Below are positions 44,218-60,772 of a stretch of 64,000 bases of DNA, piece after piece. Each line of letters starts with the position of its first letter. The stretch's first letter is position 1. This DNA is from Desulfuromonas sp. (GTDB lineage Bacteria; Desulfobacterota; Desulfuromonadia; Desulfuromonadales; Geothermobacteraceae): positions 1 to 64,000 of the forward strand of contig PKUA01000047.1 of the NCBI GenBank assembly GCA_002868905.1. Direction: 5' to 3'. The position numbers were made by a program, and so were the translations under genes. The notes below the pieces were generated by a model that saw only the letters and a list, made by a program, of their open reading frames with translations, made no database searches and was not told where the DNA came from.

Positions 44218-44985
44218 TTACCTGAGCCTGAATTTAACCGGTAAATCAACCTCGCTCGTGACCGGACGCCCATTTTGCTGAGCCGCCCGGAATCGCCAGC
44301 GCCTGACCTGTCGCAAGGCGCTACGGTCCAGCAGTCGATGCCCGGATGATTTGAGCACGACGACCTTTTCGACAACCCCTGCTGTCGTAATGGTCAGTCG
44401 CAACAGGACATCCCCTTCCCATCCCCGGCGCCGTGCCTGGTCCGGGTAGACCGGTGGTGGGTTGTCAATTCCTTCAGCCGCCAGGTAGTTGGTTGTTGGT
44501 GCTGTCGACTCGGTTTTCCCCGCTCCCTTCAAAGTCTCTTTCTGTTGACTCTCCCCCGGCAGGGGAGCCGAGGCTGGTTCCCGTATGACGCTTGCACTGG
44601 CCTGTGGTGGCTGCTCCGCTATGTTGGATTTCCAAGGAATTTTAGCAGGCTGTGGAGTAAAAGGCAGTTCTTCCTGTGTCGGTGGTGCTTCGAATGCTTC
44701 GTCAGGGGCAGGTTTGTGGACAGGCTCCAAGTTCGAGCCCGTGCTTTCGGATGACTTCTCCTGAGTCGAGGGTTGTGTCTGTCTCGGCTTGGCTGTGGCT
44801 GCCTGGTTGATCTCCTGTCGGCTCCCCTCCGTCGGTAGCGGGGTCGATGGCCGCAGTCCGAGTTCGACCTGGAGATGGCGAACTCCGGGGAGTTCCGTCA
44901 GGGGTAACGTGAGACGGAAGAGTAGCAGATGGATGGCAACGGAGAACAGGACACCGTATATCAGAAGCCGAACTTGATTGATCAT
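44218..44985 (-). CDS. TonB-family energy transducer
   Basis: 255-residue protein with a single N-terminal membrane anchor (about 7-27), a long Pro/Glu/Lys-rich periplasmic linker and a C-terminal TonB domain (about 165-255) containing NPPPVYPDQARRRGWEGDVLLRLTITTAG and SSGHRLLDRSALRQVRRWRF. It passes the energy of the proton gradient to outer-membrane receptors. No ExbB/ExbD genes are in the window. It is divergent from the receptor-containing operon and has its own promoter, so it probably serves that receptor. It ends 28 nt from the convergent rdgB stop. Confidence 0.88.
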   Translation of the reverse strand: MINQVRLLIYGVLFSVAIHLLLFRLTLPLTELPGVRHLQVELGLRPSTPLPTEGSRQEINQAATAKPRQTQPSTQEKSSESTGSNLEPVHKPAPDEAFEAPPTQEELPFTPQPAKIPWKSNIAEQPPQASASVIREPASAPLPGESQQKETLKGAGKTESTAPTTNYLAAEGIDNPPPVYPDQARRRGWEGDVLLRLTITTAGVVEKVVVLKSSGHRLLDRSALRQVRRWRFRAAQQNGRPVTSEVDLPVKFRLR

Positions 44986-45002
44986 GATCCTCCAATCCTC
45001 AG

Positions 45003-45031
45003 TATATAGACCACTCTTTACGCTTGGTCAA
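45003..45031 (-). promoter_or_regulatory. Sigma70 promoter of the tonB-like gene
   Basis: On the minus strand TTGACC and TATATA are 17 nt apart. The predicted transcript start is about 11 nt before the ATG, with GGAGG in the short leader. Confidence 0.7.
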
Positions 45032-45055
45032 CATGTCAGGTCAGACATTATGTTG
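45029..45055. promoter_or_regulatory. Palindromic operator candidate in the divergent control region
   Basis: Nested inverted repeats, outer CAACAT/ATGTTG and inner ATGTC-N6-GACAT, overlap the -35 box of the tonB-like promoter and lie about 150 bp before the divergent operon. Confidence 0.45.
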
Positions 45056-45204
45056 ATTGGTGATTTGCCAGAAAACCGGTGATTTAAGTGGGTTATGAAG
45101 TTATCTTTCGTTGAATATTCGCATGGAGAAAATTTAAGTTGTGGAAAACCATCAAAATTGCTAATTTTATTGGACTTTTTATCTTGAGGATTGGGGGTTG
45201 GGGA

Positions 45205-48200
45205 ATGAAAAAAATTGTGTCCCGGTGGAACCGGGTCATTTTCTTTTGTCTTGTGGCTTTGTTTGCATTTGGGTGTGGCGGTGGAGGGTCAACCGGATCC
45301 GACACGACAACCATCCGGGGATTGTTGACGGACGGTCCCATCCAGAACGGCTGGGTGGAACTGCTGGATATAGAGACCGGAGAATTGGCGAGAGAGTGTG
45401 GTGCCGGGGGGAGTGGCTTGTGTCGAACCCTGACCGATGAATTTGGCGAATTCCTGTTGCAGGTACCGGAAGATTTCGATGCCGCCCAATATGCCCTTGT
45501 CAGCACCGGCGGGATCGATGCGTTAACCGGTGTCGATTTCTCCCCCTTCCGGCTCCGATCTGATCTTTCCCTCTTCAACGGACAACTTGACAACGTCATC
45601 GTTTCTCCCCTGACGACCCTGCTCAGTTACCAGTTGGCGGAAAACGCTCCTTTAGCGGATGCCGCCACCGCTGTTTTGGCCGCTCTGTCATTGCCGGTTG
45701 ACAGTAACCCGCTTGCCGATCCGGCGACAACGCCAGCCCTGATCAAGGCCTCCCTGTTAACGGTCAAAATTGTCCGCGAGCTGGATAGCGTCGGTGTTGC
45801 CGAGCCGTTTCGTGCCCTTGCCGGCCAGCTTGACGACGGCATTGAAGCAGGGCAGATCGGGATGAACGACGGTTTGACCGATCTCGGTTTGACGACGGAA
45901 GCCCTGAACAGGATCGGCGATCTCGAGGAGAGATTAACCGGGACAGCCCAGGACTACTCCATCTTCGTCGAGGAAGAGTTGTTCCAGGCTCTGGGCGAGA
46001 GTGTTGCACTGTTGTTTCCCGACACCGTTGATTTGGACGATGAGGCCTTCAATGTGAATGGACGGGAATTGGTTCGGGACATGGTCCGGGCTGCCGGTGA
46101 AGAGCCGATTCCCTTGAACCGTATCGCTCCGCAGCGTTTGGCGCGCTACGCACTCCACGATTACGGGTTTGACTTGTTTGCCGACCTTACGGTTTCGGCC
46201 GAGGAGTTCGCCGGACGATTGAACGGGGATGCAGAAGCCGGTCTTGCTCCCTTGGCCGAGAACCCTGATATTTCCGAGCTTGCCGCATTGACCTCCCTCT
46301 ACGCCGTGGAGGTGCCGCTGCTGCCGACCAACCTGCTCGGAAACGACAACGCCGCACGCGTCTCTTACTACTACCAATCGGATGCGAGCCCGTTTTACGC
46401 AGCGGAACAGCTTGTTGGTCAGATCGCAGACGACCTGATCAACGATGCCATCCTGATTGACGTGGTTGAAGGAAAATCCACCGCAGGGCTGTTTGACGAG
46501 GCCCGCGTTCTGGTGGAGACTCAAATCTATACATCTGCGGCAAAAGCGGATGGTTACCTTTGGCTCGCCCGAGGCTTTATCGCACTGGGTCGTTTTGCCG
46601 AGGCGGAAGAGGTCCTGTCGCTCGCCTTTGACCTGGTCAGGACGATCGTCGATTCCAAGGGGGCAGCTCAGCTCGGATCGGACGAAACAAAGACACTTTA
46701 CGCGATTGCCAACAATTATCGGAAGTCCGGCAATGTCAGCGCAACCGAGGAGGTCTTTGACTATCTTGCAGGTATTGCCAATCAGTCTGAAAGTTCGACC
46801 ATATATGGCCGACTCGGAGTCGTGCTCCGTGACCTGGTGGACGACCTGCATGCCGATGGGGATGTTAATGGAGCGCTCGCTTTTCTCGGTGAATTGTACT
46901 CGCTGGCCCAACAGGCACCGCCCAATGTGTCAACCCGGAGCGGGGTCACCTATCAATATTACAAAATACGGGTCTACCTTCTGGAAGAGGCTGCTCGTCG
47001 GTATGCCGAATTTGGCGACTCGGACACGGTCTGGTCCATTTACCAGCAGATTGTCGCTTTGCGAAACGATGACGGCCTGGAGGGTTTGACCTTCGGTGAA
47101 ACCTGGTTTTACATGGCATTACTGGTCGACGACCTCTACCGGGTCGGATTCGAGGCAGAGGCACTGGACGTGGCCGATTCCATCCCGGAAGAGTATGAGA
47201 ATTATTACGGCGCGACCCGTTCCGGAAGCTTCTATCAACAGACCGCCTACCAGTCGGTGGTCGAATGGGTCGCCCTGAGCCAGGGGATCGAAGCGGCACT
47301 GCCCCTGCTGGAAGATTATTTCCCAGACATTCCGGACCGGGTTGAGGCGATGACTTATTTCGCCACAAACCGGAATAACCCGAACCTCGCTGCAGTTCTG
47401 ATCGAAGCCGGCAGGACGGCCGATGCCCGGGTCGTGCTGGATGCCGTTGGGCCGCTTCTTGCCGCATACCAACCCGCATCCGACAAAGACCGTCTGGACG
47501 ATCTGATCGAAGATGGCTATTTAAAGCTGGCCCGGCTCTACCATGAAACAGGCGATGTTTCCGCTGCGCTCAACCAGCTCCAGGCTGCCGAGATCGTTCT
47601 TGCCGACCTGGTCGGTGTGCAGTACCGCGTGGAGGGGATGTGCCTGACGGCTGACGTATACCAGCTCCTCGGCGAAACGCTTGCCGCGGAACAGCTTCTG
47701 GCTGCGGCCTGGAACGAGATGGCGACCGTCCTCGGTGCCAGCGATCCGGAAGATGAGGCCGATCTTCTTGAACTGATTGCTGTCGGGTATCGTAACCTGG
47801 GCCTGAGTCTGCCCGATCCGCTGATAGCAGGTTGGCTCGATACCATCGAGCTGATTTTCGACCCCGTGGCCGAATACAGCGGCAACGGGCATGATAAAGC
47901 CGCCAGGGCACAGATTGGCCAATGGCGTTCGGCGGCAGTTCTGCTGTTCGCCGCCGGTCTCGAAGAAACTGCCTTCGGTCTGCTGCAGGCGGCGGAAAGC
48001 ACGGCCTGGCAAATATTTGTTCAAGCAACCCAGGTTAGCCAGCTGACTTTGATCGTGCGCAGCTGGACCACAATCGGCCAGATTGACCAGGCCTTGCGAC
48101 TTGCTTTCGAATTGCCCTTCCTCTCCGGACAAGGCGAAGCGCTGCAGGCGATTGCAGAGGTCCTCGTGGCGAAGGATGACTTCCCCGAATCCGACGTGGC

Positions 48201-48363
48201 GCGTGTTGATACGGATGGTGATGGCCAACCGGATTTCTGGAACCCGTCAGCGTCGCAGCAGGATATCAATGCAAGCGGCCTGGTGTTGGACCCGGACAGC
48301 GACGGAGACGGCCTGAATGATGAACAAGACCCGCGTCCACTGTATTTCGATGAAGCTGGCTGA
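45205..48363 (+). CDS. Large TPR lipoprotein with calcium-binding tail
   Basis: 1052-residue lipoprotein: signal peptide with lipobox FAFGC (Cys24) followed by GGGG. Residues about 30-180 have a carboxypeptidase-regulatory-like opening (TIRGLLTDGPIQNGWVELLD) and a VSPLTTLLSYQ segment common in deltaproteobacterial lipoproteins. The middle (about 390-980) is an array of TPR-like helical pairs. The end carries two thrombospondin-type-3-like Asp loops, DTDGDGQPD and DPDSDGDGLND. The start ATG at 45205 has a G-rich ribosome site; upstream in-frame ATGs do not. Probably outer-membrane-attached. First gene of the five-gene run and 14 nt ahead of the receptor gene. Function unknown. Confidence 0.8.
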   Translation: MKKIVSRWNRVIFFCLVALFAFGCGGGGSTGSDTTTIRGLLTDGPIQNGWVELLDIETGELARECGAGGSGLCRTLTDEFGEFLLQVPEDFDAAQYALVSTGGIDALTGVDFSPFRLRSDLSLFNGQLDNVIVSPLTTLLSYQLAENAPLADAATAVLAALSLPVDSNPLADPATTPALIKASLLTVKIVRELDSVGVAEPFRALAGQLDDGIEAGQIGMNDGLTDLGLTTEALNRIGDLEERLTGTAQDYSIFVEEELFQALGESVALLFPDTVDLDDEAFNVNGRELVRDMVRAAGEEPIPLNRIAPQRLARYALHDYGFDLFADLTVSAEEFAGRLNGDAEAGLAPLAENPDISELAALTSLYAVEVPLLPTNLLGNDNAARVSYYYQSDASPFYAAEQLVGQIADDLINDAILIDVVEGKSTAGLFDEARVLVETQIYTSAAKADGYLWLARGFIALGRFAEAEEVLSLAFDLVRTIVDSKGAAQLGSDETKTLYAIANNYRKSGNVSATEEVFDYLAGIANQSESSTIYGRLGVVLRDLVDDLHADGDVNGALAFLGELYSLAQQAPPNVSTRSGVTYQYYKIRVYLLEEAARRYAEFGDSDTVWSIYQQIVALRNDDGLEGLTFGETWFYMALLVDDLYRVGFEAEALDVADSIPEEYENYYGATRSGSFYQQTAYQSVVEWVALSQGIEAALPLLEDYFPDIPDRVEAMTYFATNRNNPNLAAVLIEAGRTADARVVLDAVGPLLAAYQPASDKDRLDDLIEDGYLKLARLYHETGDVSAALNQLQAAEIVLADLVGVQYRVEGMCLTADVYQLLGETLAAEQLLAAAWNEMATVLGASDPEDEADLLELIAVGYRNLGLSLPDPLIAGWLDTIELIFDPVAEYSGNGHDKAARAQIGQWRSAAVLLFAAGLEETAFGLLQAAESTAWQIFVQATQVSQLTLIVRSWTTIGQIDQALRLAFELPFLSGQGEALQAIAEVLVAKDDFPESDVARVDTDGDGQPDFWNPSASQQDINASGLVLDPDSDGDGLNDEQDPRPLYFDEAG

Positions 48364-48377
48364 ATGAGGGTGATGCG

Positions 48378-50840
48378 GTGCGACGCTTGATGCATAGCGT
48401 CGGTGCGGGGGGGATACTGCTGTTTGCAACCTGCTGGTTCCCTTTCCCTGTCGACGCGGAGTCGCAGCAGGCGACCCGGCTCCCCGAGGTCGTCGTTTAT
48501 GGCGAAATGGCTGTCGATGCAACCGGCAGCTCCCGCCTGGGAAGCGGCTTGATCGAGAACCTTCCTGCGAATAATGGTACCGTCAGCGAATTGTTGCAGG
48601 TTTTTCCGGACGTCCAGAACAGCGAAGAGTTCTCCTCATCCCGCACCGGCGGGGAGATCCTCCCCCCTGATCTCTCCATCTCCGGGGGGAAGGTATTCCA
48701 GAATAATTTCAGTTTCGACGGGTTCGACAACAACAGCCTGCTCGATCCGACGGCGCGCAATCCGATGGATATCACGGATGTGCCGGGACATCCGCAGAAG
48801 TTTTTCCTCAATGCAGACCTGGTTGACGAAGTTCTCCTCTACGACAGCAATATCCCGGCACGGTACGGTGGCTTTACCGGTGGGGTGGTCGATGTCAGGA
48901 CCCGGCAGCCCCGCGACCGGTTTTCCGGTGAGGTCGGCTATCGCCATACCAACGCGGATTGGACTTCGCTCCACCTGAGCGAAGATGACCGGGCCGGGTT
49001 CTCTAACTCCGACAGCGCCAACAAACAGCCGGATTTCAAGAAACACCAGGCCGGCTTCGGCGTCGATATCCCCCTGGCAGAGGGGACCGGACTCCTGTTC
49101 GATTACCGTCTGCTCAGTTCGACGATCCCCCTGCACCATCTTGGCGAGGAGGTGTCCCAACACCGCAGGAACCAGAACATTCTCGCCAAATTTTCCCACG
49201 AGCCATCGTCAACGGACAGCTTTGACATCATCGCACTCTATGCTCCGTACGAGGCCGACTATTTTATTCGAAACAGCGCTTCGAGCGATTTTGAAATCGA
49301 AGGAGGAGGGTGGCAACTTGGTGGTACCTGGCACCATGACTGGCTTGACAAGGGGTTGGAGGTCCGTTTCGGTGTTACTGATCACTGGAATGAACGGTCG
49401 GCCCCGCTTGACTGGAAAGACTGGGCTGCCACCGACACCAAGGACTGGGGGAAAAATATAGGTTCCCTGTCCAGCCAGGAAGGCGGTTTCGGTTCGATTG
49501 AAAAAAACCAGGTTGACATCGAGTTGGGCGCCGAGCTGGTGTTTTTCCCCGTGGGGGATGGCGAGTTGAACCAGGAAATAGCCGTCGGCGCCGAGCTGGT
49601 CTGGCTGAACGGACGTTATGATCGTGCCGAAACCACCGGGGTCTACAGAGATCCGAGATTGACGCCGGACGTCATTTGCGGGGCCGACAACACAACCTGT
49701 GTCGATGGTGAGCAGTTTTTCACCAAACGGATTCTGTATCCGGCAGAGCAGGTCAATGAATCGATCTTTGGCTCGGCATTTTATCTTGAAGACCGCCTGG
49801 CCTACAGGCGCCTGATGGTCCGACCAGGGTTACGCCTCGACTACGACGATTACCTGCAGAACCTCAACCTGGCGCCCCGCCTGGCAGCCGAGTACGATCT
49901 TTTCGGTGATGGCGATTGCAAGTTGGTGGCAGGCGTTAACCGCTATTATGGCCACGGTTTACTCTCCTTTAAACTGCGGGAGGCAAAAAAAAGACCGGCC
50001 AATGAATATCGCACCACCTCGGGCAATCTCTTGCAGCCGTGGCAGGATGACCCACTCAAGCTGTACAACCAACATCGGTTCTCGGATCTCGATACCCCTT
50101 ACGCGGACGAGTTTGTCCTCGGTATCGACCAGAAGATTGGTGGTGGACTGTTCAGCACCAAGTGGGTCGGACGGCGCAGTCACGATGAGTTTGCCCGTAG
50201 CTATGGCCCGATCGAGGCAGACGGTCTCCGGTATTATGAGATGAACAACGCCGGATCGAGTCGGCATGATAGCGTTCGACTCTCCTGGGAACGTTCCTGG
50301 CCGAATCAGTTTCTCCTGCTGAGCTGGAATGTCCAGAGCAGCAGGAGCAGCCACGAGAACTACAACGCAGTACTCGATAACGACGCAGGCGAGGAACGGG
50401 TCTGGTATCGGGGGGAAATCGTATACCGAAGCGAGCTTCCCAGGCGTGACTACAACAGGGCTCATTCCGCCCAGATCCTGTATACCGTTAGTTTGCCGTA
50501 CGGTTTCTCCTGGTCCAATGTGACCCGCTACCTCGGTCCGTACGACGCGCTGGTCAACAGCAACGAGGAGCAGCCGGTTCCGTCCGCCGATCAGCGAATC
50601 GACCTGTTGACCGGTTTGCCGATCGAAGAGAGTCTTGCTGTGTATGAAGATGTCAGGTATGGCAGCGAACTGATTTTTGACTGGAAAATCACCTGGCAGC
50701 ATATTATGTTCAAGCGGTACCCAATGAGTTTACAGCTTGATCTGCTCAATGTTTTTAATCGAGAGGTCGAGTCGGCCACCCGGCCAGGAACCTACCGGAC
50801 CGGACGGCAGGTCTGGGCAGGGTTGAACGTCGCGTTTTAG
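48378..50840 (+). CDS. TonB-dependent outer membrane receptor
   Basis: 820-residue protein with a signal peptide (about 1-27), a TonB-box-like LPEVVVYGE (about 35-43), a plug domain to about residue 180 (LSISGGKVFQNNFSFDGFDNNS, and YGGFTGGVVDVRTRQP at its end) and a beta-barrel with alternating aromatic strands ending in Phe (AGLNVAF). GTG start with GAGGG upstream. Sequence gives no ligand. The divergent TonB-like gene and the kinase/propeller/regulator downstream suggest that uptake or binding of its ligand is linked to signalling. Confidence 0.87.
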   Translation: MRRLMHSVGAGGILLFATCWFPFPVDAESQQATRLPEVVVYGEMAVDATGSSRLGSGLIENLPANNGTVSELLQVFPDVQNSEEFSSSRTGGEILPPDLSISGGKVFQNNFSFDGFDNNSLLDPTARNPMDITDVPGHPQKFFLNADLVDEVLLYDSNIPARYGGFTGGVVDVRTRQPRDRFSGEVGYRHTNADWTSLHLSEDDRAGFSNSDSANKQPDFKKHQAGFGVDIPLAEGTGLLFDYRLLSSTIPLHHLGEEVSQHRRNQNILAKFSHEPSSTDSFDIIALYAPYEADYFIRNSASSDFEIEGGGWQLGGTWHHDWLDKGLEVRFGVTDHWNERSAPLDWKDWAATDTKDWGKNIGSLSSQEGGFGSIEKNQVDIELGAELVFFPVGDGELNQEIAVGAELVWLNGRYDRAETTGVYRDPRLTPDVICGADNTTCVDGEQFFTKRILYPAEQVNESIFGSAFYLEDRLAYRRLMVRPGLRLDYDDYLQNLNLAPRLAAEYDLFGDGDCKLVAGVNRYYGHGLLSFKLREAKKRPANEYRTTSGNLLQPWQDDPLKLYNQHRFSDLDTPYADEFVLGIDQKIGGGLFSTKWVGRRSHDEFARSYGPIEADGLRYYEMNNAGSSRHDSVRLSWERSWPNQFLLLSWNVQSSRSSHENYNAVLDNDAGEERVWYRGEIVYRSELPRRDYNRAHSAQILYTVSLPYGFSWSNVTRYLGPYDALVNSNEEQPVPSADQRIDLLTGLPIEESLAVYEDVRYGSELIFDWKITWQHIMFKRYPMSLQLDLLNVFNREVESATRPGTYRTGRQVWAGLNVAF

Positions 50841-50899
50841 CCCGGTACATCTCCTGACGTCGTACGAGCCGAAAATCCCGTTTCCCCTAGGTGTTTTTT

Positions 50900-53311
50900 A
50901 TGCGGCTCTTTCGTGAAGCGTCACTGCAGGGCAAGCTGACCTGGGTCATGGTTCTGACCAGCGCCCTGGTGGTTTCTTTTGTCATGGGTGTGGTCATCGT
51001 GCTGCAAGTGGTCAACTTCCAGCGCGGCTTGGTGGAGAAAATCGCAGCTCTTTCCGAGGTGACCAGCATCAACTGTCGCCAGGCCATGGAGCTGGAGAAA
51101 CCTTTCCTCGCGGACAAGATTCTGCAGTCGCTTAAAGTCGAAAAAGATATTCAGGCCGCTTTTCTTTATAAAAAGGAGCGGCCTTTCGCTTTTTATATCA
51201 GGTCGGCCCCGGAGGGGGGAATGCTGGGGGATTCATTGCCCTATGTACAATGTCCACTCCTGGAGTCTGCTGCGGAGATTGATGAGGCAACCTACCGTTT
51301 CAGCTGGTCGCATCTCGATTATGTGCTGCCGATCTTTTCAAAAGGTGAAATCGGCGGGCGACTGTTTATCCAGACCGGTTTATTCCAGCTCTATGAACTG
51401 CTTTGGCAGTATGCCATCGTGATCGTGTTGCTCGGGTTGATCTCCCTGGCATCTGCCTATCTGCTTTCCCGTTCATCCCAACGAGTCGTTACCGAGCCGA
51501 TACTCAAACTGGTGGGCGCGATGGAAAGCGTCTCGCAGGGTAATGACTATTCCATTCGGGTCCAATCCGAGAGTCTTGACGAGATCGGTCAGTTGACGGA
51601 CGGCTTCAATCACATGCTGGAACAGATTGCGCTAAGGGATGAGGAAATTGCCCGTCACCAGGTCAATCTCCAGTTGACCGTTGATCAGAGGACCGATGAG
51701 CTGCGCCTGTCAAATGAAGATCTTCAACGTACCGTTGGTAAGCTCAGCGAGGCGACGCGTGAGGCTGAGTCCGCGAATAAAGCAAAATCGGAGTTTTTGG
51801 CCAACCTGAGTCATGAAATCCGGACACCGATGATCGGGGTTCTCGGCATGACCGAGTTGCTGATGAATTCCGATTTAAGCGAGGAGCAGCAGCGCCAGGC
51901 CGCGATTGTTTTCAACTCGGGTGAATCACTTTTGGAAATGATCAACGAGCTGCTTGATCTGGCAAGAATTGAAGCAGGGAAGATGGAACTCGCTAAGGAA
52001 CGATTCAACGTTCGAGATACGGTTAGAGGGGTGGTTGACCTTATGTCCGGCGCGGCCGACGCAAAGGGGATCGGCCTGAAATGGGACATCAATCCGGAGG
52101 TGCCGGAGGAGATCCTCGGCGACAAGGGCAGAGTTCGTCAAATCTTGCTGAATCTTGTCGGAAACGGGGTCAAGTTCACCGATCACGGTGAGGTTGCTGT
52201 CAGGGTTTTGCCGAAATTTTATGAAAAGGGACCGGCCGGTTTGCGGATCCAGGTTGTCGATACCGGGGTTGGAATGACCGAAACTTTGCAGCGGCAAGCG
52301 TTTCAGGCCTTTATGCAAGGGGATTCCTCTGCGACAAAGCAGCATCCGGGGACCGGGCTCGGATTGACAATCGTTTCCCAGTTGACGGAACTGCTCGGTG
52401 GTAATGTGCATTTGCGGAGTGAGCCTGGCAACGGCACCGAGGTGACCGTCGATCTGCCATTGTTCGCCTGGAAGGCCGAGACCGCTAAAGCAGCAACCAT
52501 CTGTGACCAGACACAGACCCGTATTTTCCTGGTGAGTGATGAATTGGTGATCCATACCGGCCTGGTCAATGAATTGGAGCAGGCCGGTTTCGTCGTGGAG
52601 TGTTTTTCCAGCGGCCCTGATCTTGTTGCGCGGATGGCCGAAACGGGAGGGGGATCCTTCTGTGAGGTCGTTCTCCTCGATGCCGAAATGCCCGGCCTGG
52701 GTGGGCTGCGCCTGGCTCGACAAATCAGGCGGGCGCAAGCTGAGAACAAACTGATTGCCATTTTCGGTGACCTTGCTTCGGAACAACAGAATTCAGCCAT
52801 TGAAATTGAACAATGTGTCTGGTTGAGGAAGCCACTGACATTCACTGGTGTCGAAAAACTGCTTGCAGGTCTGACTCCTGAGGGGATGTCGGACATGTCT
52901 TCAAATAAATTCCGCAGTAATCCAGGTTCTTGGTCTGCCAAAAGGTTGTTGCTGGTCGATGACAGTCCAGTGACACAGGAATTGGTCGACGCAGTCCTGG
53001 CGGACAGGCTCGGTCTGCTCGAGATGGTCGGGAGTGGTGAAGACGCCATCCAGTTGTTGGTCAAAAAACAATTCGACCTGGTGCTGATGGACTGTCGATT
53101 GCCAGGAATTTCGGGGTTCGAGACCGTTCGCAGGTTGAGGGATTCCGGATTCGATGAGCCAATCATCGCTTTGACGGCCCGGGCCATGCCTGAAGATGTC
53201 AGACTCTGCCTTGATTCGGGCATGAATGATTATCTTGGTAAACCGTTTCGCAGGGACGACCTCCTGGAAACGGTCGGTCGGTATCTGGCCGAAAACCGGG
53301 GAGCAGGGTGA
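50900..53311 (+). CDS. Hybrid sensor histidine kinase with two receiver domains
   Basis: 803-residue inner-membrane kinase: membrane helices at about 14-38 and 168-190 enclose a periplasmic sensor of about 130 residues. Then HAMP (190-245), a coiled coil, the phospho-acceptor H305 in SHEIRTP, ATPase domain (about 405-525, GTGLGL), a first receiver-like domain (about 540-655) and a second receiver (about 682-800). The second is complete (D687-D688, D731, K781). The first keeps D594 and K644 but has S546-D547-E548 where an acidic pair is expected, so it may be degenerate. ATG with AGGTG in front; a GTG 9 nt upstream is the alternative. Its stop overlaps the propeller gene. Confidence 0.9.
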
Positions 53312-56300
53312 TGTCGTCCATGCCATGGAAAATCCTTCTGGCTGTTTTTGGATTGCTAGCGTTGTTGATTTTAACCACGCGGGAGCAGCTTTGGCCTGTG
53401 ACACGGCAGACTTCGGCGATTTCCAAGGTTGCCCAATTGCCGGCGACGTCAAATGGAGAGATTCAACTCGGTTTTGTCGGGGAGAACATCTCAACAAGTT
53501 TACGCGTTACCCTGCAGCCGGATTTATCAAATCGCCACCTTGTCGCTGACACTTGGAAAACCTGGGGGCAAATTAATGACTTCGCCCTGTATGGAAACCA
53601 TGCCTACCTGGTCGACAGGGAATTCGGCCTGTTGGTCATCGATGTTTCAGATGCAGGTCGGATGCACCTGGTCCAGAGTGTCGACCTTCCGGAAGAAGGG
53701 TGGAAGATTTCGATCCGTGACGGTTTGGCAGTGGTCGCACTGCCAAGATACGGAGTACAGTTTTTTGACCTGAGCCAACCGGCCCGTCCCGAATTGCTGA
53801 CGTCGTTTCCGTTTGAAGGGGTGACCCACGATGTTGTTGTGGCCGATCACCGCGTTTTGGTCCTCTCTCTTCCGCAGGGGGTTCAGGTCATCGACGCACG
53901 GGAACCGCGACACCCGAAGTTACTCGGTCATGTTGACATTCCCGGCCGTGGTTCGGAGATCGTCGTTGATGGAACCAGGGCGGCGGTCGCCTGTCGCAGT
54001 GGCGGAGTTGCTCTTCTCGACCTCGCTGCAGGGGAGATGCCGAAAATATCCTCCGTCCTGACAACCGACTTTCCTGCCATGTCCGTCGCCATGCGAGACA
54101 ATCAATTGGCGGTTGCCTTTCAATACCAACACGGTTTCGACCTGTTTGAAATCAGGGGAAACCGTGTTGTCACCTCCCAGCCAGGGCCGAAAAGTTTTTA
54201 CGCCCGGACTCTCGTCCTTGAGCAAGGACGAATCCTGGTCGGTTCAGCCGATGGATTCCGGATGTTTCAAACCGACCACGCTCAGGGAATACGCGAAATC
54301 GTTCACTTGGAAACGGAGCGCACGCCCTTCGAAATAGCCCGGGACGGTGCCAGGCTGTTTCTACTTGGTCGGAATATGCCCTTGATGAAATTGAACTGGG
54401 ATAGCCTGGTCGATCATGGGGGGGAGGGCATAAGGAAAATCTATCCGGATGTTTTCGGGATAGCCGAAAAGGAAGGGCGCCTGTTCCTTTCTGGTAAGCC
54501 GTTTGGATTACGTATTGCTCGCCGGTCTGGACCACACTCCTGGACGACCCTGGCCGATCTTGGCCCGGCGTGGAGGCCATCAGTCGTTGCAGCTTCCGGA
54601 GATAAAGCGCTGATTGCCGGCCGAGTCGGAGGCCTCGGCCTGCTCAGGGTCGACCCAACTTCCGGTGAGGTTGAGGAGCAATGGCTGGATACGAATGCCA
54701 TCTCCGCAATGAAAATTCATGCGGGACAGTATGCCCTGATTGCTGAATCCCGTGGACGCCTCGGAATATTCAATCTGGATCAGTCGTTGTCGAGTGGGAT
54801 CAAGTGGCTCCCGCCCCTGGCAGGCTCCGTTAACAGCCTTGATGTCAACAACTCCTGGGTCGCCCTCTCCGAGGAGATGGTCGGTATCGAAATCATTGGC
54901 TGGGACGGAGTCGGGAAAGAAACATCCCGGCAATTTCTTCCTTTCGACATCCGGATCAGACAGGTTCGTCTTCAGGGTGACTTGTTATTTGTGCTTTCCT
55001 CTTCCGGGGCGCTCTACCGAATGACCATCAATTCCGAAGGGCGACTTCGGGAAAGGGCTCATCTCAACCCTGGCAAGCCGATAGGGCATATGGAAATGTA
55101 CGATGACAGGCTTTATCTGGTTCAGAATGATGGGTCAATCTCCGTCCTTGAGTCCGGTGAAGACCGAAGCTCCAAATTGGTCGGAAAGGTCTTTGCTGAT
55201 AACACCCCGGGGATGTTGAGAATCTGCGCCGGCAATGGCCGTCTTTATGTGAGCAATTATCAGGGGTTGTTCGTGTATGAGGTCTCGAAGGCCGGAGGTC
55301 TGATCCTGATACGCCATGTTGAGAACGATAGCAGTATCATCGATATGTCCGCGGATTCTGATCTGCTGTGGATTGTCAGTCGCGACCGGGGGCTGGTCCT
55401 GTTCGAGAGACAGGAGAGAGACGCTCCCACCCTTCGAAAACAGTGGCAGATGCAGGGGCGAGAGGTCGTCATTGTCGATCAGACCGCATTGGTAAGAACC
55501 AATGAAGGCCTCTTGGTTGTTGATATAGCCGATCCGCGCCGACCGCGATTGATCGAGAGAAGACATGTCGGCTGGGATGTCACAGGTATTTGTCGCATCG
55601 ACGATGTGATCGTGCTGGTGGATAAAGTGATGGGAATGTTTGTTTTTCAATTGACAGATGAACGTCGCTTAATCGAGGTCGCGACCCTTCCATTGCCGGG
55701 CAAGGCCTGGGGGGCGGTCGTGCTTGAGGACATGGTACTCATCCCTTGCGGCAGTGAGGGACTCGCGATCGTCAGGTTGGCGGACCCTGAGGCCCCGTCT
55801 TTGGTTACCATCGAGGAACTTCCGTTGCCTCTCGCCTCTTTTGCGACAGCACGCGGGGTCGCGGTTCACGATCGGATCGCTTATGTCGCCCAGGGCAGGG
55901 CTGGAGTGCAGATCCTCCAACTTGATTCCACCGGCTTTCCGACTTCGGCCAGCTTGTTCGATACATTTTATTTCGCCCGCAACGTTAAAGTCGTTGGTCA
56001 ACGCCTTTTCGTCGCAGATGTCTTTGGGGGTGTTCTGGTCTATGACCTTTCTGACCCTTTGAACCCCCGATTCGAAGATGTTGTTGACGTTGGCCATAGT
56101 GCCAGGGATCTGATTCCGGTCGGCGAAGAGATCTGGGTTCCGGAGCCGATGCGACTGATACCTAAGCCAATGTCGCTTGGTTTGGAACGGTCGGGTAGGG
56201 AGATTGTGGCAACGGTTCCGGGTTCCCTTGGGGAAGGCTGGTACAACCTTCGGGTCATGGAACCCGGGGTGGGAGTTCTGTGGGAAGGATTTCTTGGAAA

Positions 56301-56346
56301 ATCAGCTGGTCGAGTTGAACTGAAGACAAGCGGCACATTTCAATGA
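53311..56346 (+). CDS. Membrane-anchored periplasmic beta-propeller protein (LVIVD-type repeats)
   Basis: 1011-residue protein with an N-terminal uncleaved-looking anchor (about 5-22) and then a large beta-rich periplasmic part. Repeats of about 40-45 residues follow the LVIVD pattern, e.g. AYLVDREFGLLVIDVSDAG, VALPRYGVQFFDLSQPARP, GVQVIDAREPRHPKLLG and GLLVVDIADPRRPRLIE. There are enough blades for two or three propellers. A small beta-sandwich-like end (about 935-1011) follows. Cysteines are rare. The ATG overlaps the kinase stop (TGATG), so kinase and propeller are translated together. I infer an extracytoplasmic sensor partner for the kinase; direct evidence is absent. Confidence 0.8.
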   Translation: MSSMPWKILLAVFGLLALLILTTREQLWPVTRQTSAISKVAQLPATSNGEIQLGFVGENISTSLRVTLQPDLSNRHLVADTWKTWGQINDFALYGNHAYLVDREFGLLVIDVSDAGRMHLVQSVDLPEEGWKISIRDGLAVVALPRYGVQFFDLSQPARPELLTSFPFEGVTHDVVVADHRVLVLSLPQGVQVIDAREPRHPKLLGHVDIPGRGSEIVVDGTRAAVACRSGGVALLDLAAGEMPKISSVLTTDFPAMSVAMRDNQLAVAFQYQHGFDLFEIRGNRVVTSQPGPKSFYARTLVLEQGRILVGSADGFRMFQTDHAQGIREIVHLETERTPFEIARDGARLFLLGRNMPLMKLNWDSLVDHGGEGIRKIYPDVFGIAEKEGRLFLSGKPFGLRIARRSGPHSWTTLADLGPAWRPSVVAASGDKALIAGRVGGLGLLRVDPTSGEVEEQWLDTNAISAMKIHAGQYALIAESRGRLGIFNLDQSLSSGIKWLPPLAGSVNSLDVNNSWVALSEEMVGIEIIGWDGVGKETSRQFLPFDIRIRQVRLQGDLLFVLSSSGALYRMTINSEGRLRERAHLNPGKPIGHMEMYDDRLYLVQNDGSISVLESGEDRSSKLVGKVFADNTPGMLRICAGNGRLYVSNYQGLFVYEVSKAGGLILIRHVENDSSIIDMSADSDLLWIVSRDRGLVLFERQERDAPTLRKQWQMQGREVVIVDQTALVRTNEGLLVVDIADPRRPRLIERRHVGWDVTGICRIDDVIVLVDKVMGMFVFQLTDERRLIEVATLPLPGKAWGAVVLEDMVLIPCGSEGLAIVRLADPEAPSLVTIEELPLPLASFATARGVAVHDRIAYVAQGRAGVQILQLDSTGFPTSASLFDTFYFARNVKVVGQRLFVADVFGGVLVYDLSDPLNPRFEDVVDVGHSARDLIPVGEEIWVPEPMRLIPKPMSLGLERSGREIVATVPGSLGEGWYNLRVMEPGVGVLWEGFLGKSAGRVELKTSGTFQ

Positions 56347-56400
56347 TCGGACCGACTGATTTGAACGGTGATGGAAATGTCAGAGAGGGGAAAATGAGAG

Positions 56401-59382
56401 ATGCGATTTTTGCTGGTTGACGATAACCCGGTCAAGCTTGATCTGTTACGGCAGTTGTTAAACAAGGAGATGCCAGGTTGTTTATTGAAAATGGCTGAAA
56501 ATGGTCGTGAAGCTCTGGCCCTGGCCGCAAAACAAAATTTTGATGTCGCTTTCGTTGATGTGCAAATGCCGGGGATGGATGGGCTCGAGGTCTGCCGTCG
56601 TCTGAAGGGGAACCCCGCGACAGCCGGGATTCATGTTGTCCTCATTACCGCTCACCAGGCGGACAGCAATTTACGTATTGCCGGTCTCGATGCCGGCGCG
56701 TTCGACTTCATCACCCAGCCGATTCGTAATGCCGAACTGATGGCCAGGTTGCGGAGCTTGTTGCGGGTCAAGCAGTTGGAAGACGAGCTTCTGGAAGAGG
56801 CGGCCGGGTTAAAACAGACGATTGCAGAGCAGGCATCAACCATGAACTGGCTGACCGGCCTGTTTTCCTTTGCGTCCGACGCAGACGGAGAGAGCATTGC
56901 CGGGGATTTGAAGAACCTTCTGGATCAGACTGACAGGAACGCTCGCCCCGATCTGGCTATGATGGATCGTAAAATATTTATTCAATTCCCGGAAGATTTG
57001 CGCACTCTTTTCTTGCAGCTAGCCCTGCTCGGCACTATTCCGCACGATATGGTGTCGGATATTTTCGCCCAGGATTCGGTCGGTGACATCGTCGATTACC
57101 TGGTTCGGCATGATTTCCTCGTAGAAGCCCGGCGTGACAACCAGACCTTCATCGGGTTTCGGAATGAGTTGGGCAGTTTCCTGCAGAACCTTGCAGCTCA
57201 AGAACTGCCGGTTGAACAGATCACCCAAACATACCGGCAGGCAGCGGAATGGTTTTCCGACAACGGCCCGTCGGAACGGGCACTTGAGATTGCTTTGCGC
57301 AGCGGATCCCCTGAACTGGCCGAAGAGGTCTGTGCCAGGGAGTTTTGCCGCCTTCTCGTGGAGAATATTCTCCCTTTGCAGCAAGTGAGAGAGTTTGACC
57401 TTGGTGCCACTGGCAGAGATGGGTACGGCCCATGGCTTACGGTGATGGTTGCCATCTCATGCCAGGGGAGTTCTCCGGGTACATGCAAAGAGCTATTGGA
57501 AAATACTATCGATCATTTCGAGATACTCGGAGAGTGGCGTGGGGTCCTGATCAGTAAAGGGTTATTGCTGGAGCAATTCCTCCTGCTGGAAATGGATGAA
57601 GACAAGGCAGGACTACTGTTGCCCGGAATCAAGGAGGCGCTATCGACGCCTGACGTCCGGCAGGATGAAGGTGTCTGCCGGTTTCTGGAAGACCTGGTCG
57701 ATATGGCAGGGCAGATATTCCCATTAAAAACCCATAGGTTGTTCGGCCCGGGGGACCCCTTTGGGCAGGAGATTGAAGAACAGAAAGAAGCAAGAACACA
57801 GGTGGGATATCTTGCGGCGTTTCACCGTTCAATTGTTGACGGCGCCAGTCAATCTGTCCAGAGATTCATTGGAAAAGAATATTTCACTCTTCTGGGCAAG
57901 ACAACTCCTTTGCAGAGAACCTGGTTCGATCTGCTGCTGAGCAGGTTTATGCTCTTGCGTGGGGAGCTTGAGATGGCCGAGGACGTTCTCGCCTCCTTGA
58001 TGAAACGTTTACCATCCACCTGGCTGGGGAACACCAGGCTGGGGTTGATTGTCAAAGTGATGGACGTTGAGCTGATGTTGATGGATGGCAGGGCCTCCGC
58101 AGCCTGGGAAGCGATTCGCAATGGCGGTTGGGAAAATATTCAAAGTGAACCTCTCAGGTTGTGGGTGGCACTTCTGACCCGACTCGCCAAGCCCCCGGAG
58201 GCGATTGCCGACAACGGAACTTCCACTCTGAATGGAGAGTTGGGCGCCGTATCCTGGCCGTTCGATCTCCATGTCGGGATGGCGGCGCTGGCGACCGGCG
58301 ACTACGAGCTGGCATCGGAAAATTTTCGTCAGGTCGTGGAAACCACCGAGCCGAAAGCATCTCCCCTTTCTCTGGCGTGTGGTCGCATTGGCATGTCCAT
58401 TCTGTCCGAGCAGCAGGGGCGACCGCAGAACCCGCAGATGCTGGCCGAAGGCGTTGCGTTTTTTCGCCGTAGCGATTATCGCGTGGTTCCGTATCTCGTT
58501 CCGGATTTGAGGCGCAGTTTTTATCAGCTTGCCCTGAAATATTCGGAATCTCCTGAGTGGATCAGGGTTCTCGCTCGCGATGACTTGAAGGTCAGCCTTG
58601 TCGATGAGGGTTCCCCACGGCCCCTGCTGAAAGTCAACGCACTGGGCCCGTTTACAATAGGTCCTGAAAGAGGGACAGCTCTGAAGTCGGATGATTTGAC
58701 AGTTGGGCTGAGGCAACTGCTTGCAATGTTGATGCTCGCTCCTGAGCAGAAACTCCCCCAGGAACAGGTCCAGCTCGCTTTCTGGCCGGAGAGTGGGCAG
58801 ACTCAGGCCCGGTCGAAACTCGATTCCCTTTTGTTGCGTCTGAGAAAAAGTCTTATCCCAATCGTGGGGGATGAGGCGGCCAAACATCATATTAAGCTGC
58901 AGCGTGGCGTGCTTGTTCTGGAAGACTGTCTGATTGACCTCGCGGAATTCCGTGAAAAGGTGCGAACCGGGTTGAGGCAGCAGCGACGCGGAGAACATTG
59001 TCAGGCAGAAATCTCGTTTCGGGCTGCTCTCCGTTTGTGGCGTGGTCCGTTCTCGCTCGAATTACCAGAGGGCGCTTTATTTAATCATATTCTTGAAGAT
59101 TTGAAATTGTTGTTGACCGATGCCTGTCTCGCTTTGAACCAGATTTATTTGACACGCCAGGACTCGGAACAGGCAGAGAAAGTTTTACGCTTCGGGTTGC
59201 GTCAGGAGCCGTGCCAGGACGAACTGATGGAGGAACTTTTGGCTTTCTACCGGGAAAGAGGCCAGTCGGTCCGGGCGGCAGGAATATGTGCCGAATATGA
59301 ACAGGCGTTGGTGTCTCAAGGGTTTAGCCCTGATGAGGCAAAAGAGTCTTTGCAGTTGTTGCGGCAGGTCGACACGGAATAG
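56401..59382 (+). CDS. Response regulator with receiver, MalT-like and SARP/BTAD domains
   Basis: 993-residue cytoplasmic regulator. Receiver (1-120) has D7-D8, the acceptor D53 and T83, but the conserved Lys is Gln106 (FITQP). After a coiled coil, residues about 195-330 read like the winged-helix and helical segments that follow the NTPase in MalT-type STAND regulators (YRQAAEWFSDNGPSERALEIALRSG), yet no P-loop exists. A helical repeat region runs to about 735. An OmpR-like winged helix (about 740-840) and a bacterial transcriptional activator domain (about 845-985) close the protein. It should bind DNA in response to phosphorylation by the preceding hybrid kinase. Target promoters are unknown; the divergent control region at 44986-45204 is a natural candidate. 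Confidence 0.85.
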   Translation: MRFLLVDDNPVKLDLLRQLLNKEMPGCLLKMAENGREALALAAKQNFDVAFVDVQMPGMDGLEVCRRLKGNPATAGIHVVLITAHQADSNLRIAGLDAGAFDFITQPIRNAELMARLRSLLRVKQLEDELLEEAAGLKQTIAEQASTMNWLTGLFSFASDADGESIAGDLKNLLDQTDRNARPDLAMMDRKIFIQFPEDLRTLFLQLALLGTIPHDMVSDIFAQDSVGDIVDYLVRHDFLVEARRDNQTFIGFRNELGSFLQNLAAQELPVEQITQTYRQAAEWFSDNGPSERALEIALRSGSPELAEEVCAREFCRLLVENILPLQQVREFDLGATGRDGYGPWLTVMVAISCQGSSPGTCKELLENTIDHFEILGEWRGVLISKGLLLEQFLLLEMDEDKAGLLLPGIKEALSTPDVRQDEGVCRFLEDLVDMAGQIFPLKTHRLFGPGDPFGQEIEEQKEARTQVGYLAAFHRSIVDGASQSVQRFIGKEYFTLLGKTTPLQRTWFDLLLSRFMLLRGELEMAEDVLASLMKRLPSTWLGNTRLGLIVKVMDVELMLMDGRASAAWEAIRNGGWENIQSEPLRLWVALLTRLAKPPEAIADNGTSTLNGELGAVSWPFDLHVGMAALATGDYELASENFRQVVETTEPKASPLSLACGRIGMSILSEQQGRPQNPQMLAEGVAFFRRSDYRVVPYLVPDLRRSFYQLALKYSESPEWIRVLARDDLKVSLVDEGSPRPLLKVNALGPFTIGPERGTALKSDDLTVGLRQLLAMLMLAPEQKLPQEQVQLAFWPESGQTQARSKLDSLLLRLRKSLIPIVGDEAAKHHIKLQRGVLVLEDCLIDLAEFREKVRTGLRQQRRGEHCQAEISFRAALRLWRGPFSLELPEGALFNHILEDLKLLLTDACLALNQIYLTRQDSEQAEKVLRFGLRQEPCQDELMEELLAFYRERGQSVRAAGICAEYEQALVSQGFSPDEAKESLQLLRQVDTE

Positions 59383-59407
59383 CGATCCACTGCCACGGCA
59401 ATGCAGC

Positions 59408-60772
59408 TTAATCGATATAGGGGCGCAAAAAGGGGAGTGCTTCCTTGATCGGGATTGCCATCGTCGTTCGTTGATCTCCGATGGTTCTTGCGAAAACAAT
59501 CCCAACCACCTCCCCTTGGGAATTGACCAGCGGCCCACCCGAGTGTCCATGAAAAACAGCGGGGTCGAAGTGGAATAGAGGGGTCGCTCCAAAATGCTCG
59601 ATGCTAATGATTCGTCCCGGTTTCATCGAGAGCCCGAATTCGAGTGGAAAACCGATGGCGGTAATCTGGTCCGCGATGTTGACCATGGTTGAATCCCCCA
59701 GGTCGAGAGGTTTTCTGTCGATGCCTTCGCAACGGAGAATGGCCAGATCGAGATTCGGTCGTCGTTCGACAATGCTGGCAGAGGCGACTTCGCCGTCGTG
59801 GAACCTGACGGTGAGTTGCTCTGTGTCCTCGACGACGTGAAGGTTCGTTATACCGAGTCCCCCTGCGCTGAAAATAAATCCGCTCCCGGTCCCCCGTTCG
59901 GTTCTGACTTTGAAAATAGACTGGCTGACCAGTCTGAGCATTTGTTTGAGGTTCAGGGATTCAGCCGGAAATGGGGCTGGTTTTTCATGGGATTTGTTGC
60001 TGGTTGCGGATTTGCCGGTTTTAGGTCGAATTTTTACGGCCGGCGGCAGGTGGTGGGTATCTCGGGCCCCGGCGCTGTCACCCAACTCTTCGGAGGCTTT
60101 CTGCCAGGAACGTTTTTTGAGTTCGTCCGGAAGCTTCTGCAAAATTTGCCGTTCAATGTCAACCAGAGCGTCCCCGGTCAATTCAGTGACCCATTTGAAC
60201 TCCTGGGTCATGCTCATTGCCTCGTAGAAATCCCCACTTATCTCATTCATGGTGCGATAGTTCTGTTGGACAAGTCGCAGACGCCGGTTGTCGCTGGTGT
60301 AATAGAAAAGACTGACAACGGTTTTTGTATGGGCTTGGTAGGAGAAGAGGTTTGCTGGCGAGAGGAGAAAGCAACTGATGCCGGAGAGGCATGCGGCCAG
60401 TGAACTTGTCTTGCTCAGGCCATAGCGTATTCGAAAATCGACGGTAAACAACAAGTTCCCCGGGGAGCCAGTTTCCCGGAAATCTTCAGTATCAGTCAAG
60501 CGGTGTCCGGGCAGTGGACGTAACCGACCCTGAATCGTGGACTGTTCCAACTCCTTTGCCAACGATTCCGCGAAGCGCTTGGATTGCTGGTCAAAAACCT
60601 GCTCGAGGTTCTGGCGGTGCGAAGTCTCCCAAATCTCGGAGTCCGGGAAGAGGGGTTCAATGGTGACGCTGATATAGCCACTACGATTAATCTGCTCTTT
60701 GGCTGGCAACTCTTTTCCAGGGAATACCAGGAAGAGCAGAGAAAGCATCAGGATGATATGGAGACGGTGCAT
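59408..60772 (-). CDS. Secreted trypsin-like serine protease with unique N-terminal domain
   Basis: 454-residue protein with a signal peptide (about 1-24), an unrecognised domain (about 30-225) with a hydrophobic Cys-containing stretch (LAACLSGISCFLLSPANLF), a Lys/Pro-rich linker and a chymotrypsin-fold protease domain (about 285-454). The catalytic triad is complete: H312 (TNLHVVE), D342 (NLDLAIL), S411 (GHSGGPL). No PDZ domain follows, unlike DegP. The start is taken at the signal-peptide Met (60772). Convergent with the response-regulator gene, 25 nt between stops. A role in processing the neighbouring envelope proteins is possible but not shown. Confidence 0.85.
   Translation of the reverse strand: MHRLHIILMLSLLFLVFPGKELPAKEQINRSGYISVTIEPLFPDSEIWETSHRQNLEQVFDQQSKRFAESLAKELEQSTIQGRLRPLPGHRLTDTEDFRETGSPGNLLFTVDFRIRYGLSKTSSLAACLSGISCFLLSPANLFSYQAHTKTVVSLFYYTSDNRRLRLVQQNYRTMNEISGDFYEAMSMTQEFKWVTELTGDALVDIERQILQKLPDELKKRSWQKASEELGDSAGARDTHHLPPAVKIRPKTGKSATSNKSHEKPAPFPAESLNLKQMLRLVSQSIFKVRTERGTGSGFIFSAGGLGITNLHVVEDTEQLTVRFHDGEVASASIVERRPNLDLAILRCEGIDRKPLDLGDSTMVNIADQITAIGFPLEFGLSMKPGRIISIEHFGATPLFHFDPAVFHGHSGGPLVNSQGEVVGIVFARTIGDQRTTMAIPIKEALPFLRPYID

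Follow-up and report, generated by a model that had tools for sequence, protein, structure and literature searches.

A hybrid histidine kinase with its adjoining periplasmic propeller protein, together with a TonB-dependent receptor of the FusA family, forms the conserved core of a gene module in the order Desulfuromonadales, with TonB and a TPR-type lipoprotein as frequent partners. The association of these genes across the order is strong. The module is described here from a 64,000-nucleotide stretch of DNA (the window), which belongs to a 3.3 Mb genome (84 contigs) from the family of Geothermobacter, Desulfuromonadales. The explanation that we prefer, and to which we give an even chance, is that the module combines outer-membrane import of the FusA type with a propeller–kinase sensing pair of its own. 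FusA is the best-studied TonB receptor taking in an intact nutrient protein, and we know of no mechanism by which protein import of the FusA type is sensed.

Seven genes make up the module in the window, and all seven open reading frames given in the initial annotation were found intact at their coordinates. The gene for a TonB-like energiser (44218–44985, minus strand; Pfam TonB_C, 2.6e-26) is divergent and occupies a FusB-like position. An intergenic region (44986–45204) separates it from the plus-strand gene for the TPR-type lipoprotein (45205–48363), which has a lipobox at Cys24. The following plus-strand genes encode the FusA/YddB-family TonB-dependent receptor (48378–50840, GTG start; assigned by profile against 4zgv and 6ofr), the hybrid histidine kinase (50891–53311, GTG start; HAMP, HisKA, HATPase and two receivers in Pfam), the periplasmic multi-propeller protein (53308–56346; Pfam LVIVD repeat, 6.2e-16) and a response regulator (56401–59382; Pfam receiver, 1.1e-25, and BTAD, 9.4e-13, with a MalT-like middle and a winged helix). 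A convergent gene (59408–60772, minus strand) encodes a secreted trypsin/HtrA-like serine protease (Pfam Trypsin_2, 2.5e-26). The gap of 14 nt between the lipoprotein and receptor genes, the overlap (4 nt) of the kinase and propeller genes and the gap of 54 nt between the propeller and regulator genes agree with the initial annotation; its 59 nt between the receptor and kinase genes applies only from the ATG at 50900, while the GTG start gives 50 nt. Its labels were also borne out: the TonB-like protein by TonB_C, the TonB-dependent receptor by the FusA/YddB profile match, the two-receiver kinase by the Pfam domains, the TPR lipoprotein by the lipobox and a TPR-type solenoid, the membrane-anchored propeller by a helix at residues 6–27 and LVIVD, and the secreted protease by Trypsin_2. 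A near-identical 13-nt leader, TGAGGATTGG(A/G)GG, precedes both divergent starts (44989–45001, minus strand; 45185–45197, plus strand); these are its sole two matches in the window, and it is absent from the counterparts in relatives. Promoter and terminator scans gave scores no better than those of shuffled sequence, and no convincing Fur/IdeR consensus box was found upstream of the receptor, lipoprotein and kinase genes.

To assess the distribution of the module, receptor and propeller profiles were run against 136 genomes of the order. The receptor profile matched 96 genomes and the propeller profile 104; both were present in 95 and neither in 31, with the receptor alone in one and the propeller alone in nine (Fisher p = 2e-21, a value that ignores the relatedness of the genomes). 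Coordinates for both were available in 92 genomes; in 80 of these the two genes shared a contig and lay no more than 3.5 kb apart, and in the remaining 12 they were mostly on separate contigs of fragmented assemblies. This arrangement is far beyond chance. The initial annotation had taken the genes to form one unit and had named rare co-occurrence as evidence against it; co-occurrence proved to be the rule. Full-length propeller matches in two genomes outside the order (G384, G432) were rejected, since these LVIVD proteins have neither a kinase nor a receptor beside them.

The kinase gene was located directly upstream of the propeller gene, often with a 4-nt overlap, in 37 of 40 fetched neighbourhoods, which were picked by propeller matches, so this count is silent on genomes without the propeller. 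Genes in these neighbourhoods were called by a six-frame profile scan, which was needed for GC-rich loci (L039, L064). The three exceptions are L048, at a contig end, L057 (with its copy L087, and together with L089) and L043. Loci L043, L057/L087 and L089 keep the propeller and receptor without this kinase, and some loci have two tandem propellers, as would be expected if the propeller were a periplasmic chaperone or cargo-docking factor of the receptor and the kinase a translational neighbour with a separate role. We regard this explanation as decidedly improbable, because the kinase and propeller genes overlap in most loci, often by 4 nt, and because L087 and L114 have a different CHASE8 kinase beside tonB, so that a kinase of the sensor type is kept. 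In family f3 (L237, L238), two tandem propeller genes follow a shorter kinase gene.

In the common layout, the receptor gene converges with the kinase–propeller pair (receptor forward, propeller and kinase reverse), and in many genomes tonB is divergent and the receptor gene is preceded by that of a lipoprotein. The window has a different order, tonB being followed by the lipoprotein, receptor, kinase, propeller and regulator genes and then by the protease gene. This order is complete in L044/L088 and L064 and partly present on the fetched stretch in L045 and L061, all of the same family; the Geothermobacter hydrogeniphilus HR-1 record NZ_PPFX01000030.1 has the gene order of the module of G094, from the window's family. 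Because all loci found with the window layout belong to one family, that of Geothermobacter, the arrangement as a single operon and the presence of the regulator and protease are traits of this lineage, and since the convergent layout is the usual one, it is not the operon as such that is conserved. Thus, of the genes in the initial proposal, the kinase, propeller and receptor are kept across the order, whereas the regulator and protease genes adjoin them only in the window's family. The proposal that outer-membrane, periplasmic and cytoplasmic parts are encoded together in a bacterium of the Desulfuromonadales type is supported.

A profile built on 30 of the order's receptors matched just two structures, those of the ferredoxin receptor FusA (4zgv; E = 8e-189, positions 31–820) and of E. 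coli YddB (6ofr; E = 3.2e-126, positions 50–821). The similarity is full-length, over plug and barrel, which places the receptor in this family; a Pfam search of the receptor gave no match. The receptor is single-copy in the window genome. Its identity among relatives is 32–52%, the highest of the core parts, compared with 15–24% for the propeller. These matches strongly suggest that the module is a FusA-family import system, the substrate of which is probably iron or a protein. The receptor family thus points to protein/iron import, a link that had not been seen in the initial annotation. Import of PQQ was considered as a function and rejected: it rested on a mistaken equation of YddB with PqqU, and PMC12124388 concerns a different receptor.

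The roles of FusA, FusB and FusC in the Fus system have been described (PMC6793856, PMC7593965); FusB is a dedicated TonB paralogue that binds cargo and is required for FusA transport (PMC7593965). In a survey of FusA relatives, Grinter et al. 2019 (PMC6793856) describe gene contexts with proteases, of the M16 class and of other kinds, and with cytochrome c peroxidases; the main text of that paper contains none of the terms kinase, propeller, lipoprotein or Desulfo-. The module resembles the Fus system of Pectobacterium (FusA-FusB-FusC-FusD) in the receptor family, a nearby dedicated TonB paralogue, a secreted protease gene nearby and a link to iron (feoB/ideR neighbours in one family). It differs in that the protease is trypsin-like (Trypsin_2) and not of the FusC-type M16 class, in having no FusD-type ABC gene, and in the addition of the TPR lipoprotein, propeller protein, hybrid kinase and regulator. 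The FecA-FecR-FecI system likewise links a TonB-dependent receptor to an inner-membrane sensor; however, the module lacks the receptor signalling domain, FecR and the ECF sigma factor. The receptor (820 aa) has a short N-terminus before the plug and no extra N-terminal signalling domain. A Pseudomonas relative of the module receptor does have a FecR neighbour.

In a tree of 76 receptors, most module receptors grouped together, with the exception of L050. The tree needs seven label changes, at least four of them by well-supported branches, and therefore does not show a single origin of the association. L050 (genome G041) has a local-type kinase and propeller, but its receptor groups with those of Deferribacteraceae, as might be seen after an exchange of the receptor alone, with the sensing pair left in place.

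The propeller protein consists of a membrane helix (residues 6–27), a small beta domain, several propellers with LVIVD-type blades and a C-terminal Ig-like domain (AlphaFold model, pLDDT 73), and it is predicted to be anchored in the inner membrane and periplasmic. A Foldseek search for specific propeller relatives returned generic propellers only, e.g., DDB1, with low TM-scores. The initial annotation had viewed the operon as a split-gene analogue of the Bacteroidetes hybrid two-component systems (HTCS), in which propellers, kinase, receiver and AraC regulator are in one polypeptide. The likeness to HTCS with SusC/SusD consists in the joint presence of periplasmic propellers, an Ig-like domain, a hybrid kinase, a TonB-dependent receptor and a lipoprotein, and the propeller profile gave a weak match to the HTCS structure 4a2l (E = 9e-5). 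However, HTCS structures matched no better than other propellers, the membrane anchor of the propeller is at the opposite end, the domain order differs, sensor and kinase are separate proteins, the receptor is of the FusA type and the AraC output is absent. The kinase, furthermore, carries a CHASE8-like sensor of its own and no propeller. Origin of the module from an HTCS by true descent is therefore very improbable and not supported; the earlier comparison stands as an analogy only.

With its N-terminus, the window kinase covers the whole NF053592 profile ('histidine kinase, YfiR-like protein-associated') and is the sole such kinase in the window genome, with scores (143.9–146.9 bits) below the curated cut-off of 194 and with a propeller gene, not YfiR, as its partner. 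Its match to Pfam CHASE8 (E = 0.057) is also below cut-off. Among relatives, CHASE8 was matched by all 21 sampled kinase N-termini (E ≤ 0.1, best 5.7e-19), which also matched the NF053592 and YfiN models. The sensor is thus predicted to be a CHASE8-like periplasmic domain, as in YfiN. In YfiN, the CHASE8 domain is under the control of YfiR, a periplasmic protein; the propeller would, by analogy, play this part for the kinase, and propeller-to-kinase signalling is plausible. In the transmitter part, His308 of HisKA and the ATP-site residues are invariant. Receiver 1 is degenerate (Asp597 is present, the other site residues are lost), and receiver 2 is intact, its Asp734 being kept in 33 of 33 sequences.

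The regulator comprises a receiver (Asp53), a MalT-like helical middle, a weakly matched OmpR-like winged helix and BTAD. Its earlier MalT/BTAD label is correct for BTAD and for the MalT-like segment (chain 8bob, E = 2e-6) but not for the MalT NTPase, which is absent. The phosphorelay residues (kinase His308 and Asp734, regulator Asp53) are intact, and the operon contains no HPt domain; five HPt matches occur in the window genome, each of them within a long ORF. Phosphate may pass to the regulator directly from His308 or by a relay in trans. Only in the family of the window does the regulator gene adjoin the module, and most genomes have no response regulator beside the module. In L057 (copy L087) and L089, tonB has the genes of a different kinase and of a regulator-like protein next to it. 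Those of L087 (3051–5729), which directly follow tonB, encode a HisKA_2 kinase with a CHASE8 sensor and a 410-aa receiver–BTAD regulator, an alternative pair for signalling associated with the same receptor. The window protease has the triad His312, Asp342 and Ser411 and no PDZ domain. The convergent protease of L064 (15803–17197, minus strand) has Ala in place of the expected catalytic Ser, so this relative may be able to do without protease activity.

In family f17 and its relatives, 11 loci have a gene for an IdeR/FeoA-type repressor upstream of the kinase–propeller pair, and in nine of them this repressor gene is preceded by feoB. In L036, the 152-aa gene before feoB reads, as judged from its sequence, as that of a Fur-family protein. 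Together with the FusA relationship, these neighbours favour iron; the fur-feoB-ideR neighbourhood, seen in one family only, may reflect a single evolutionary event. Iron regulators beside the module in one family, a CHASE8-like sensor in the kinase itself and the usually separate, convergent transcripts of receptor and kinase–propeller would also fit a kinase and propeller that sense another envelope cue (metal, redox or envelope stress) and merely control receptor expression, the receptor sending no signal. We consider this unlikely, though credible, given that propeller and receptor are so rarely found apart in the order and that a plain regulator would need no long-kept periplasmic propeller of ~700–1000 residues.

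For the preferred explanation, import coupled to sensing, we suggest the following pathway. The lipoprotein and receptor would capture the substrate, probably an iron-bearing protein or peptide, and the dedicated TonB would drive its entry. What the periplasmic propeller reads may be cargo that has been imported, or else the receptor's own state of activity; it would switch the kinase via its CHASE8 domain, as YfiR does with YfiN, after which receiver 2 would pass on the signal of the kinase. The adjacent receiver–MalT–BTAD regulator would provide the output in the window's family, where the secreted serine protease would take the place of FusC. This pathway draws on the FusA/YddB E-values, the co-occurrence, the kinase–propeller adjacency, the CHASE8 matches and the iron neighbours, and its BTAD output on the independent case of L087. 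Against it are the absence of a Fur/IdeR box, of a substrate clue in the window, of a FusC-type M16 protease and ABC transporter and of an operon HPt, the degenerate receiver 1, the few genomes in which a regulator adjoins the module, the restriction of iron neighbours to one family, the Ser lost in one protease and the low identity of the propeller.

More tentatively, and with somewhat less than an even chance, the receptor, TonB, lipoprotein, propeller and CHASE8 kinase may represent a new class of trans-envelope signalling, a single relay that reports to the cytoplasm that an external (iron) protein has been imported successfully. If so, the relay would be standard throughout the order, one of metal- and sulfur-reducing bacteria. 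In most genomes of the order, which includes iron and sulfur reducers, FusA-type receptors are accompanied by a dedicated sensing pair, and the module would offer a concrete, testable path by which a receptor could control genes; it is suggested that the piracy of proteins or iron may matter to anaerobes in sediments. The system had been proposed as apparently undescribed, and searches for LVIVD, receptor–kinase–propeller, YfiR–kinase–receptor and FusA with Geobacter/Desulfuromonas indeed gave no description in the open-licence literature, an earlier report being possible.

The TonB-like protein has an N-terminal membrane helix, a proline-rich linker and TonB_C, and in many relatives its gene adjoins, divergently, that of the receptor or the lipoprotein. 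The lipoprotein is composed of an N-terminal beta domain, a long TPR-type helical solenoid and C-terminal Asp-rich calcium-like repeats, and its model (pLDDT 85) has the beta domain followed by the TPR-like solenoid. A likeness to SusD was rejected, as Foldseek returned generic TPR superhelices only. The lipoprotein also pairs with FusA-family receptors beyond the order, in Desulfobacterales, Deferribacteraceae and marine Gammaproteobacteria, and it seems to be their general partner, although unreported so far. In Desulfobacterales and Deferribacteraceae (L091, L096, L104, L108, L109, L117), the pair is followed by genes for an ABC ATPase, a ~221-aa protein and a DUF4857 protein, to which Deferribacteraceae add two small ExbB/ExbD-like genes (identified by eye) and tonB. 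In marine Gammaproteobacteria (L115, L119, L144, L152, L156, L157, L160), the lipoprotein–receptor pair is followed by a gene for a protein of ~360–380 aa, which in the two cases tested was a di-haem cytochrome c peroxidase/MauG protein.
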